DNA from: Arthrobacter dokdonellae
Lineage (GTDB): Bacteria > Actinomycetota > Actinomycetes > Actinomycetales > Micrococcaceae
Length of the DNA stretch: 64,000 nucleotides
Assembly (NCBI RefSeq): GCF_003268655.1
Contig: NZ_CP029642.1
Coordinates: 124,001-188,000, forward strand
Reading direction: 5' to 3'
Shown here: piece by piece, positions 23,374 to 26,094 of the stretch
Numbering within the stretch: the first letter of the stretch is position 1
Layout of the letters: every line of letters begins with the position of its first letter
Notes under the pieces: generated by a model
Told to the model about the DNA's origin: nothing
Database searches by the model: none
Seen by the model: the letters and a program-made list of their open reading frames with translations, nothing else
Translations under genes and position numbers: made by a program

Positions 23374-24492
23374 CTACGCCGCTGCCCCAGGCCAGGTCCG
23401 GCGGGCGTGCGACGCCTCGGCCAGCCTCGCCAGCACGTCCACTGTCACGTCCCATTCCATGCAGGCGTCCGTCACGCTCTGTCCGTACCTCAAATCCGCG
23501 GTGCCGGCGGCCACCTCATCCACGTCCAGCTTCTGCGCGCCGGCCACCAGGAAGCTTTCCAGCATGATGCCGGCGATGGCCGCCGCGGAGGCGCCTTCTT
23601 CGAGCTGCGCGCCGATTTCCAACGCGACCTCGGCCTGCCGGTGGTGGCTCTTGCCGGAGTTGGCATGGCTGGCGTCCACGATCATGCGCGGGTTGATCCC
23701 GGCGCCTGCCGCCCTGGCCGCGGCAGCCCCGACGTCGAACGCGGAGTAGTTGGGTCCCCTGCGGCCGCCGCGCAGGATCACGTGGGTATCCGGGTTGCCG
23801 GCGGTGCTGACCAGGGAGGCGCGGCCGTCCCCGTCGATTCCCAGGAACGACTGCTCCGCACTGGCCGCGCTGCAGGCGTCCAAGGCCACCTGGAGGTCGC
23901 CGTCCGTGCCGTTCTTGAAGCCCACGGGCATGGACAGACCGGATGCGAGCTGGCGGTGGATCTGGCTCTCGGTGGTGCGTGCCCCGATCGCACCCCAGGA
24001 GATCAGGTCGGCCGTGTACTGGGGGCTGATGGGTTCCAGGAATTCGGTGGCGCAGGGCAGGCCAAGCCGGGCCACGTCGCGGAGGAATTCGCGGGCCATC
24101 CGCAGGCCCGTGGCGACGTCGTGGCTGCCGTCCAGGAGGGGGTCGTTGATCAGGCCCTTCCACCCCACGGTGGTGCGCGGCTTTTCAAAGTAGGCGCGCA
24201 GCACCACCAGCAGGTCTTCCTCGTGCTCCTTCGCGGCCCCTGCCAGCCGGCGGGCGTAGTCCAGGCCGGCTGCGGGGTCGTGGATGGAGCACGGGCCCAC
24301 GATCACCAGGAGCCTGTCATCCACGCCGTCCATGACCGCGCGGACCTGGTCGCGGCCGCGCTCGACGACGCCGCCGACCCGCGCGTCCAGCGGAAGTTCC
24401 GCCTGGAGTTCGGCGGGCGTCGGAAGGGCCGTGAACCGGCTGACGCGCAGGTTCGCTGTGCTGGTGGTGGATTCTGCTGCTGTGGTGCTCAC
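23374..24492 (-). CDS. aroF: 3-deoxy-7-phosphoheptulonate synthase, class I (AroF/AroG type)
   Basis: This 372-residue enzyme condenses phosphoenolpyruvate and erythrose 4-phosphate, the entry step to aromatic amino acids. Typical motifs are LLVIVGPCSIHDPAAGLDYA, VLRAYFEKPRTTVGWKGLINDP, LPCATEFLEPISPQYTADLISWGAIGART, VGFKNGTDGDLQVAL and MIVDASHANSGK. It starts with GTG behind an AAAAAGGA ribosome site. A leader peptide with Trp, Tyr and Phe codons and a set of competing hairpins precede it, so expression is probably attenuated by aromatic tRNA charging. Confidence 0.95.
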   Translation of the reverse strand: MSTTAAESTTSTANLRVSRFTALPTPAELQAELPLDARVGGVVERGRDQVRAVMDGVDDRLLVIVGPCSIHDPAAGLDYARRLAGAAKEHEEDLLVVLRAYFEKPRTTVGWKGLINDPLLDGSHDVATGLRMAREFLRDVARLGLPCATEFLEPISPQYTADLISWGAIGARTTESQIHRQLASGLSMPVGFKNGTDGDLQVALDACSAASAEQSFLGIDGDGRASLVSTAGNPDTHVILRGGRRGPNYSAFDVGAAAARAAGAGINPRMIVDASHANSGKSHHRQAEVALEIGAQLEEGASAAAIAGIMLESFLVAGAQKLDVDEVAAGTADLRYGQSVTDACMEWDVTVDVLARLAEASHARRTWPGAAA

Positions 24493-24548
24493 GGGGCTGG
24501 TCCTTTTTCAGGTGGCAGCGGGCCCCTGTTCAGAAACCCGCCTGGAAA

Positions 24549-24640
24549 TGGCGAAGGACAGAGAATGATTTCTCTGTCCTGTTGGCTCTGAAGGAAGGTT
24601 GGATGCGTGTCAGTGAGACGCGGGCCCCTCCAGAGCCAAC
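24549..24640 (-). promoter_or_regulatory. candidate ribosome-dependent attenuator of aroF
   Basis: Two pairings are visible. CAGAGCCAAC at 24631-24640 is a perfect complement of GTTGGCTCTG at 24581-24590. Just beyond it, 24555-24565 and 24570-24580 form an 11-bp stem with a 4-base loop. The first segment overlaps codons 10-13 of the leader peptide, directly after the Trp-Tyr-Ala-Tyr-Phe run, so a ribosome stalled there would mask it and change the folding. A clear U-rich terminator is not seen. Confidence 0.65.
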
Positions 24641-24669
24641 GAAAAATACGCATACCAACGGTTTGTCAT
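24610..24669 (-). CDS. aromatic leader peptide MTNRWYAYFSLALEGPASH
   Basis: This 19-codon frame ends in TGA and holds Trp5, Tyr6, Tyr8 and Phe9, the three end products of the pathway started by the downstream enzyme. On the minus strand a TACAGT box ends seven bases before the ATG, with TTGTGA 18 bases further up. Transcription would therefore begin at or next to the ATG, giving a leaderless message. That fits the lack of a good ribosome site. Confidence 0.75.
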   Translation of the reverse strand: MTNRWYAYFSLALEGPASH

Positions 24670-24700
24670 GCCACCACTGTAGACCGCTCGCCGCCGCAGT
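24670..24700 (-). promoter_or_regulatory. predicted promoter of the aroF leader
   Basis: On the minus strand, TTGTGA and TACAGT are separated by 18 bases, with TACAGT ending seven bases before the leader ATG. Placement predicts a leaderless leader-peptide transcript. Confidence 0.5.
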
Positions 24701-24776
24701 CACAATTTGTGTCCGCCTGTGTCGCGGGCGGCGGACGGGGCCGCGTTGCGCGGCTCCGCCCGTCGCGGGTCAGACC

Positions 24777-24848
24777 CTTGGGTCAGCGCAGAGCGTCAGC
24801 GCCTTGGGTCAGCGCAGAGCGTCAGCGCCTTGGGTCAGCGCAGAGGGT
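24777..24848. repeat. 26-bp tandem repeat at the 3' end of the DadA-type gene
   Basis: Units beginning CTTGGGTCAGCGCAGAG start at 24777, 24803 and 24829 (the third partial). The stop codon of the oxidoreductase (24835-24837) lies in the unit nearest the gene, and the others copy the last codons downstream. Confidence 0.9.
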
Positions 24849-26094
24849 CGAAGTGGCGCATGATGGCTGGCGGCGTGGTGCCGGTGAGGCCGGCGGCAAT
24901 CATCTTGCCGGTCAGCGGTCCCAGGGCAATGCCCCACATGCCGTGGCCGCCGGCCACATGCACGCGCGGGGATTTCGAGGCCCCGATGAGGGGGAAGCCG
25001 TCCGTGGTGCATGGGCGCGCCCCCACCCACTCCTCGGCACGGCCCTCCCAGTTGATGCCCGTGAACATGGGTGCGGCGGCCGCCACGATGGCCTCGATGC
25101 GACGCGGGTCCAGCGGCGCGTCGACGTCGCGGAACTCCATCATCCCGGCCACCCGCAGCCGGTTCCCCAGCGGGGTGCAGGCCACGCGCTGGGCGGGAAA
25201 GTAGATGGGGTGGCTGGGCATGGCCTCGGGCACCACGGTGAAGCTGTAACCGCGGCCCGCCTGGACCACACGCTTGACGCCGAATTTGCGGGCCAGGGCG
25301 CCCAGCCAGGCACCCGTGGCGAGGACCACGGCGTCGGCCGTCAGGGACCGGCCTTCGGAGCCGATGACTTCCACTCCGGTGCCGGTGTCGCGCACGTCCA
25401 CCACGTTGAAGGCACCAGTGATGGCGGCTCCCCGTGCGGTGACGGATCCGGCCAGCGAGTCCATGAACGCAGGAGGATTGATGTACCGCTGGCCCCGGAT
25501 TTCAATCCCGGCCACCACCCCGGCGCCAAGGGTGGGTTCCAGTTCGCGCAGCTGCTCCCCGGAAATCAACGCGTAGTCCACGCTGCCGCCGGTTTCGCGG
25601 ATGACGTCGAACTCCTTCACCAGGGCGTCACGGTCGGCGACGGCGGCAAAGCCGGCCAGGAAGGGATCGGCCGGGTGCGTGGGCTCGGCCCCCGCGCCGG
25701 AGGCCTGGGCGATTTCGTCAAAGGCGTCCAGGCCGGTGTGGCCCACCTCGGCAAAGACGCCCATGGCGGCACGCCACTTGCCCGGCGTGCAGTTGCGGGC
25801 GAAGCCGGCCAAGAACTTCAGCAGTGACGGATCCGCGGAGAAAGGGATGTAGAGCGGCGACGCCGGATCCAGCATGGCCTTGAGCCCGTGCCTCAAGACG
25901 GACGGCTCGCTGAGCGGCAGGGTCAGGGCCGGGGTCAGCCAGCCCGCATTTCCCCACGAGGAACCGCTGGCGACGCCGCCGCGGTCCAACACGGTGACGC
26001 GGATCCCTTGCTCCTGCAGATACCAGGCGGCGGACAATCCGACGATCCCCGCACCAACAACAACCACATGTCCAGGCGCCTTTGCACTGACCAC
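24835..26094 (-). CDS. D-amino acid dehydrogenase-like FAD oxidoreductase
   Basis: This 419-residue flavoenzyme has the N-terminal FAD-binding motif VVVVGAGIVGLSAAWYLQEQG, then SSWGNAGWLTPALTLPLSEP, and the C-terminal GARPCTTDGFPLIGAS...HVAGGHGMWGIALGPLTGKMIA. This is the DadA group, which oxidises D-amino acids (or glycine/sarcosine-type amines) and feeds electrons to the chain. The start is GTG at 26094. An amino acid permease wreck upstream suggests a former uptake-oxidation pair. Confidence 0.88.
   Translation of the reverse strand: MVSAKAPGHVVVVGAGIVGLSAAWYLQEQGIRVTVLDRGGVASGSSWGNAGWLTPALTLPLSEPSVLRHGLKAMLDPASPLYIPFSADPSLLKFLAGFARNCTPGKWRAAMGVFAEVGHTGLDAFDEIAQASGAGAEPTHPADPFLAGFAAVADRDALVKEFDVIRETGGSVDYALISGEQLRELEPTLGAGVVAGIEIRGQRYINPPAFMDSLAGSVTARGAAITGAFNVVDVRDTGTGVEVIGSEGRSLTADAVVLATGAWLGALARKFGVKRVVQAGRGYSFTVVPEAMPSHPIYFPAQRVACTPLGNRLRVAGMMEFRDVDAPLDPRRIEAIVAAAAPMFTGINWEGRAEEWVGARPCTTDGFPLIGASKSPRVHVAGGHGMWGIALGPLTGKMIAAGLTGTTPPAIMRHFDPLR

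Follow-up and report, generated by a model that had tools for sequence, protein, structure and literature searches.

A candidate aromatic amino acid leader upstream of aroF in Arthrobacter dokdonellae and related Actinobacteria, with a predicted helix relay to the Shine-Dalgarno region

Leader control of aroF is already known from Corynebacterium glutamicum, where the aroF leader (aroR; Neshat et al. 2014, as cited) is described, in the available parts of PMC11802643 and PMC4046766, as carrying a Phe-Tyr-Phe motif, responding to Phe and not to Tyr, and acting as a transcriptional attenuator with attenuator transcripts. Replacement of this leader has been used to engineer aromatic production, according to the available part of PMC7356990. 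Mycobacterial leaderless polycysteine uORFs control downstream translation (Canestrari et al. 2020, as cited in PMC9031893 and PMC13236596); these citing descriptions have them sense one amino acid and say nothing of a multi-helix relay reaching a Shine-Dalgarno region. The ilvB leaders serve several related end products with one leader (PMC10272879, PMC8079986, PMC13236596), and Streptomyces lividans has several leaderless leader ORFs (PMC8079986), again as described in the available parts of these papers. A survey of Actinobacteria from 2005 gave candidate structures for Trp, Cys and Leu genes and for ileS, and in the part available to us reported no conserved structures upstream of other amino acid pathway genes (PMC1262725). 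In the open-access literature, seen partly as excerpts, on DAHP synthase with leader peptides, attenuation, uORFs or structured RNA, we found no description of the element presented below, and no open-access paper was found on its leader sequence or on aroF leaders in Arthrobacter.

The locus lies in the window, the whole stretch of 64,000 nucleotides analysed from contig NZ_CP029642.1 of A. dokdonellae; all features are on its minus strand and are given in window coordinates. aroF (24492–23374, with a GTG start codon at 24492) encodes a 3-deoxy-7-phosphoheptulonate (DAHP) synthase of the AroFGH type, which scored 454.8 bits against TIGR00034 (aroFGH; cut-off 173.2) and is the only PF00793 match in the genome. 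A class II DAHP synthase (PF01474) is also encoded elsewhere in this genome. We considered that aroF might be the sole DAHP synthase, which would explain the sensing of three aromatics, and rejected this idea because PF01474 is found in 295 of 295 family genomes, including that of the window. A sequence-only reading had pointed to a 19-codon frame before aroF with Trp, Tyr, Tyr and Phe in five codons, and its coordinates and codons proved exact. The ORF (MTNRWYAYFSLALEGPASH; 24669–24610) runs from the ATG at 24669 to the TGA stop codon at 24612–24610, which is separated from the GTG of aroF by 117 bases. The sensor codons TGG TAT GCG TAT TTT (Trp, Tyr, Ala, Tyr, Phe; 24657–24643), identified from the sequence and its relatives, place the aromatic residues at 24657–24655 (TGG), 24654–24652 and 24648–24646 (TAT) and 24645–24643 (TTT).

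The locus resembles aroR in that a short leader ORF with aromatic codons precedes an aroF-type DAHP synthase gene in an actinobacterium, and both genomes match PF01474 and PF00793. Unlike aroR, with which it could be compared by published description only, it has Trp, Tyr, Tyr and Phe codons and a predicted relay to the Shine-Dalgarno region; the Phe-Tyr-Phe motif given for aroR in the available part of PMC4046766 is absent from its Trp-Tyr-Ala-Tyr-Phe stretch. With the polycysteine uORFs it would share a leaderless, codon-specific design that is described as acting on translation, and with the ilvB leaders the sensing of several end products by one leader, leaderless in S. lividans, although those leaders are described as serving branched-chain amino acids through transcription termination. 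The trp attenuators of Corynebacterium and Streptomyces likewise combine end-product codons with alternative RNA pairings, but differ in having a terminator with a U-tract and an antiterminator, as far as the available part of PMC1262725 describes them.

The -10-like hexamer TACAGT noted previously is present at 24681–24676, with six bases between it and the leader ATG. Among non-redundant relatives with enough upstream sequence, 78 of 78 had a TANNNT hexamer 6–8 bases before the leader start (test window, 4–8 bases), compared to a mean of 2.6 and a maximum of 7 in shuffled upstream sequences. An SD-like tetramer preceded the leader in only two of the 78. The conserved hexamer at this spacing fits a leaderless message, as had been proposed, and the leader message is probably leaderless, with a transcript start expected at or adjoining the A of the leader ATG. 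A scan of 24440–24760 for the sigma-70 consensus returned no promoter-like site and we claim no clear -35 element, so that the promoter assignment rests on the conserved -10.

Within the genus, aroF was found in 23 of 23 genomes (that of the window included) with the leader upstream in each, although one of the leaders is frameshifted 3' of the Phe codon. Mean pairwise identity was 96.6–99.6% in three 20-column windows of the leader, compared to 30–66% in four windows 5' of it. This identity, together with the presence of the leader ahead of aroF in every genome, argues against a chance occurrence. In the family, 117 of the 295 sampled genomes carry this aroF, and some form of the leader precedes it in all 117. 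The strict DNA pattern of the leader matched 108 of the 295 genomes, all among the 117, and by their listed positions all 108 matches lie at most 350 bases from the aroF match. The remaining nine aroF genomes (L197–L204 and L018, which is G006) all have variant leaders, including MNSQWYAYF, MTNRWYANF, MIKCWQAYF and MINRWYSYF; two of the nine are frameshifted.

A looser pattern, searched across named genomes, matched at least 118 stretches. Among the 80 matches listed, the genera were Arthrobacter, Pseudarthrobacter, Paenarthrobacter, Sinomonas, Paeniglutamicibacter, Kocuria, Zhihengliuella, Microbacterium and Humibacter, with single oddities labelled Nocardioides and Sporosarcina. An aroF relative followed the leader in 133 of 138 loci examined (the 118 stretches and 20 others), and the other five sequences end less than 400 bases past the leader. 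Beyond the family, an aroF match was obtained for 27 of 119 genomes at the order level and 37 of 197 at the class level, two sets that overlap and include family members. Of these, part of the loci were read upstream, and the leader was present in 12 of 13 at the order level and 15 of 19 at the class level (27 of 32 together). Distant leaders follow the same plan with other residues (RWYWRFTLAPGGA, VRWYWFVSAPAAA, VRRYRYFAQAPGGA, ARVYWRFIEAPGEP, SYRWFRQPAAEP and VYFWFSKPALGG). No recognisable leader was found before aroF at L216 (family f4; one aroF copy read) or at L217, L221, L222 and L226, which come from four of the eight aroF-carrying f35 genomes.

In total, 236 loci (L001–L236) were collected. 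Seven without a usable aroF match were dropped (three weaker pattern matches, and L136, L163, L173 and L196, which have the leader but are cut off), as were the duplicates L024 and L025 and the five loci with no leader before aroF. This left 222 elements, in which the same species sometimes occurs more than once, and from these a non-redundant set of 79 elements less than 92% alike was selected.

The aromatic codons are conserved across these relatives and the stems covary (see below), which was the check proposed in the sequence-only reading. Trp, Tyr and Phe all occur within codons 2–15 in 74 of the 79 non-redundant leaders (215 of all 222); three of the others have Tyr and Phe only, and two have Trp and Tyr only. 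By sequence comparison, this is a short conserved upstream ORF in which codons for the pathway's end products are over-represented, as is generally the case for leader peptides. In 67 of 72 analysed leaders, the last aromatic codon begins exactly 8 bases 5' of the B core, a conserved GGC (see below). In the same 72 leaders, the Tyr codon before B is TAT in 126 of 126 cases and the Phe codon is TTT in 64 of 72, whereas the aroF sequences of these loci use TAC 292 times and TAT three times, and TTC 360 times and TTT ten times. Such rare U-ending codons would raise the sensitivity of the ribosome to shortage; a general A+T bias near the beginning of leaderless frames is an alternative explanation. 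The arrangement had been called unusual in the sequence-only reading. This does not hold for leaderless leader ORFs, described in S. lividans (PMC8079986), or for an aroF leader as such, described in C. glutamicum (PMC11802643, PMC4046766), and leaders that combine the three aromatics occur commonly among the genomes examined, that of the window being no exception. What appears new, compared to the available parts of these descriptions, is the variant that joins three aromatics to a predicted relay.

From the aromatic codons of the leader to the start region of aroF, the RNA can be divided into segments that form five relay helices, A:C, B:D, D:B', B':H and H:SD, each of which excludes the next. 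Segment A (24659–24648), the aromatic codon stretch, pairs with segment C (ACGCATCCAAC; 24608–24598), just 3' of the leader stop codon, through 11 bp with one bulge. Segment B (24640–24627), the 5' arm of P1, pairs with segment D (CCTTCAGAGCCAAC; 24594–24581) through 14 bp with one G-U, in which the 14th pair, G24627–C24594, was read from the sequence. The 10-bp pairing of 24631–24640 with 24581–24590 that had been reported is exact and forms part of this longer helix. D can alternatively pair, through 24592–24584, with 24538–24535 and 24533–24529 of segment B' (24542–24529). The portion of B' at 24542–24535 is the 5' arm of P3, whose 3' arm (24524–24517) belongs to segment H (24525–24514). 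H has an alternative partner in the Shine-Dalgarno region of aroF (AGGACCAGCCCC; 24504–24493), with which it is paired in the predicted closed state. The 11-bp hairpin P2 (24580–24555; arms 24580–24570 and 24565–24555), also described previously, is present as a constant element. Segment X (GGGCC; 24627–24623) can form a local hairpin with GGCTC of B, in a register read from the sequence. Two features go beyond the earlier description, namely pairing between the aromatic codons and 24608–24598 and the pairings onward to the aroF start. A:C takes in the sensor codons and is mutually exclusive with B:D, which it crosses; both helices covary.

Covariation was tested by comparing the duplex energy of the true partners with that of partners permuted between sequences, using sets of 72 sequences and of 30 sequences less than 82% alike. 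Left out were L072, L197 and L219, in which the aroF start was misassigned, and L232–L235, for which segmentation failed or was doubtful; L233, L234 and L235, with leaders VYFWF or AYFWF, did not fit the common segment plan at P2. With the 30 sequences, the z-scores were -5.0 for A:C, -7.7 for B:D, -5.8 for D:B', -4.7 for B':H and -5.1 for H:SD, each equalled by 0 of 2000 permutations. Twelve control pairings reached at most -1.3 with this set and -2.3 with the 72 sequences (D:H, 27/2000). The segments were first spotted by eye in some of the tested sequences and the test is thus confirmatory; to guard against picking, all 55 pairings possible among 11 segments were scanned as well. Eight pairs fell below z -3, each with 0/2000: P2 (-13.8), the five relay helices, the P2 tail with B' (-5.7), and B with X (-3.7, using an X window of 24627–24616). 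The ninth-best pair, B:SD, had a z of -2.3 (18/2000).

When the permutations were restricted to within two groups, all five relay helices were kept, at z -3.3 to -5.4 and at most 3/2000. D:B' was weak in 11 distant (non-Micrococcales-type) sequences, at z -1.7 (102/2000), where the control C:B' was stronger (-2.1, 47/2000). H:SD reached -3.7 and -2.6 in the two subgroups, a computational indication that the Shine-Dalgarno region takes part in the pairing. Two other candidates were discarded: X, in the leader, did not covary with B' (z -0.2, or -0.1 with a shorter X window), and a direct pairing of D with the Shine-Dalgarno region gave z +2.0.

Columns were also counted in 30 hand-picked sequences, mostly of the Micrococcales type. 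B:D, P2 and B':H together had 95.0% of their cells paired, compared to at most 56.6% for slid partners, and 12 pairs changed on both sides, a number reached in 1 of 500 shuffles. Further pair types were not above shuffles, either for these three helices (136/500) or for D:B' (384/500). In the register of this genome, D:B' had only 67.2% of its cells paired, which is explained partly by one extra base in B' of this genome; the case for D:B' consequently rests on the segment permutation. The RNAalifold consensus of the same 30 sequences contained B:D, P2 and a small tail hairpin, and lacked B':H.

Based on these comparisons, the element is very probably a ribosome-mediated attenuator for aromatic amino acids, and its output is probably initiation of aroF translation through this helix relay. 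The leaderless 19-codon ORF would sense the charging of tRNA-Trp, tRNA-Tyr and tRNA-Phe, and the leader ribosome would control aroF translation via the series of mutually exclusive helices. In the proposed ON state, A is covered by a ribosome held up at the aromatic codons, which blocks A:C and allows B to pair with D; B' would then be free for H, leaving the aroF Shine-Dalgarno region free. In the OFF state, the aromatic codons would be read fast, and the ribosome would move over B while A:C could form behind it. With B covered, D would pair with B', releasing H to close the Shine-Dalgarno region. P2, located between D and B' in both states, would act as a fixed spacer. We lean towards the view that this is an actinobacterial RNA element found in several families, in which one leaderless leader reads three aromatics and five mutually exclusive helices in succession carry the ribosome's position across about 165 bases to the aroF Shine-Dalgarno region; control would then be translational and run in several steps, unlike a terminator switch with two states. 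Such an element would offer a concrete and testable explanation of how numerous Actinobacteria might tune shikimate pathway entry to all three end products together, with one leader switching a second DAHP synthase beside the class II enzyme. The five-helix relay predicts alternating signs of mutant effects, and it bears on the engineering of aromatic production in Actinobacteria.

To model the effect of ribosome position, helix ensembles of 30 sequences were computed with the ribosome-covered stretch barred from pairing. With the ribosome nine to five codons 5' of the B core, a range that takes in Trp5 and Tyr6 of this leader, B:D had 8.4–9.9 pairs, D:B' 1.5–1.7, B':H 4.2–4.4 and H:SD 2.9–3.3. 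With the ribosome anywhere between one codon 5' and six codons 3' of the B core, these values were 0–0.7, 7.2–7.6, 0.7–0.9 and 5.5–6.5, respectively. With the 3' edge of the ribosome set at +15, a ribosome placed at the first aromatic codon left B:D with 9.9 pairs and D:B' with 1.5; once it stood three codons beyond the last aromatic, B:D had none, D:B' 7.6, B':H 0.8 and H:SD 5.5. The modelled sign is as expected, a stalled ribosome corresponding to the predicted open state. The switch point coincides with the last two aromatic codons, its precise position varying with the assumed 3' edge: with the ribosome stalled on the last aromatic, B:D was ahead of D:B' in 23, 11 and 8 of the 30 sequences for edges of +11, +13 and +15. 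Whether a stall on the last aromatic is ON or OFF therefore depends on the footprint assumed.

The final step was less distinct in the model. B':H exceeded H:SD in only 16–17 of the 30 sequences when the ribosome occupied the first aromatic codon, and in 3–5 when it had passed the aromatics. The energy required to open the Shine-Dalgarno region hardly followed ribosome position (mean change -0.3 kcal/mol, s.e. 0.4–0.5, at the Tyr8/Phe9 offsets) and, being weak, was not used as support. The modelling thus supports the upstream helix switch, and weakly the opening of the Shine-Dalgarno region. At equilibrium and with no ribosome, the RNA of the window's own genome already forms B:D and lacks A:C, and L050, L059 and L076, three of six sequences inspected, fold wholly into the closed state. 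In L202, neither B':H nor H:SD formed in the model. A ribosome waiting at the leader stop codon favoured B:D again.

The relay could also be one half of a combined mechanism, in which it switches aroF translation and the untranslated mRNA is then terminated early by Rho or degraded. This explanation includes the relay rather than excluding it, and would reconcile it with the effects at the transcript level that are reported for C. glutamicum aroF in the available part of PMC11802643. We regard it as quite possible, although short of probable.

A further alternative is classical ribosome-mediated transcription attenuation, in which P2 acts as a leaky intrinsic terminator whose formation or termination is under the control of the leader ribosome. 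P2 is indeed the best conserved helix, with 6 of 10 counted pairs changed on both sides; at least six of the nine bases following it are T in 6 of 73 relatives (for example, TTTTTTATG in L197), and C. glutamicum provides the described precedent of a transcriptional attenuator with attenuator transcripts. However, when the arms of P2 were compared with all other segments, no clear covarying partner emerged (best z -2.2, 31/2000, 18 pairs), and the idea of P2 as a terminator paired with an antiterminator was set aside for want of a clear competing partner among these pairs. The terminator scan of 24440–24760 returned no terminator-like site and accepted no U-tract after P2 (tail TTCGCCATT). In addition, the covarying alternatives continue beyond P2 to the Shine-Dalgarno region. 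For these reasons the RNA, as far as can be seen from its sequence, does not appear to be a classical terminator/antiterminator, and the suggestion in the sequence-only reading that the pairing and hairpin form an attenuator of this type was not borne out; we consider this mechanism unlikely. In the translational relay that we favour, P2 may add transcription termination in lineages with a U-tract behind the hairpin. L069, L133, L197 and L202 have T at 6 or 7 of the nine positions past P2, resembling an intrinsic terminator, and control may be shifted towards transcription in these four; L218 and L231 have 6 T.

We also considered that the leader might be a functional small peptide whose aromatic residues matter as protein rather than as codons, since the peptide RWYAYFxxALEGP is highly conserved among the 138 loci examined. 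This is highly improbable: synonymous positions are also conserved in the genus, conservation tracks the RNA pairing, residues 3' of Phe differ in distant families, and three frameshifted leaders (L018, L088 and L200) keep the aromatic codons. A ligand-binding riboswitch or T-box, which would likewise account for a structured, conserved 5' region ahead of a biosynthetic gene, is more improbable still, given the codon-specific ORF inside the structure and given that Rfam 15 yielded no family at the gathering threshold in the window and, in 24440–24720 up to E 10, only two matches, both on the plus strand and far below the gathering scores.

The frameshifts in L018 (G006), L088 and L200 (G140) all lie 3' of the Phe codon, altering the peptide or removing its stop codon while leaving the aromatic codons in frame; they are possibly sequencing errors, or possibly a sign that the end of the peptide does not matter. 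The presence of aroF varies inside genera (for example, g24, g26, g28 and g31), and 117 of 295 family genomes have it, compared to 295 of 295 for the class II enzyme. This patchiness beside a universal class II enzyme suggests that the aroF unit, leader included, has been lost or transferred repeatedly. Six f4 genomes with aroF have two aroF matches each. The sequence at L092 (NZ_JADHDY010000003.1), titled Sporosarcina beigongshangi REN13, carries an aroF and leader of the Arthrobacter type, and its name looks wrong. Upstream of the aroF promoter in the window, about three copies of a 26-base tandem repeat (24769–24849) lie between the promoter and a gene similar to D-amino acid dehydrogenase (24835–26094, minus strand), for which the best NCBIfam score was 200 bits, below the cut-off of 383.
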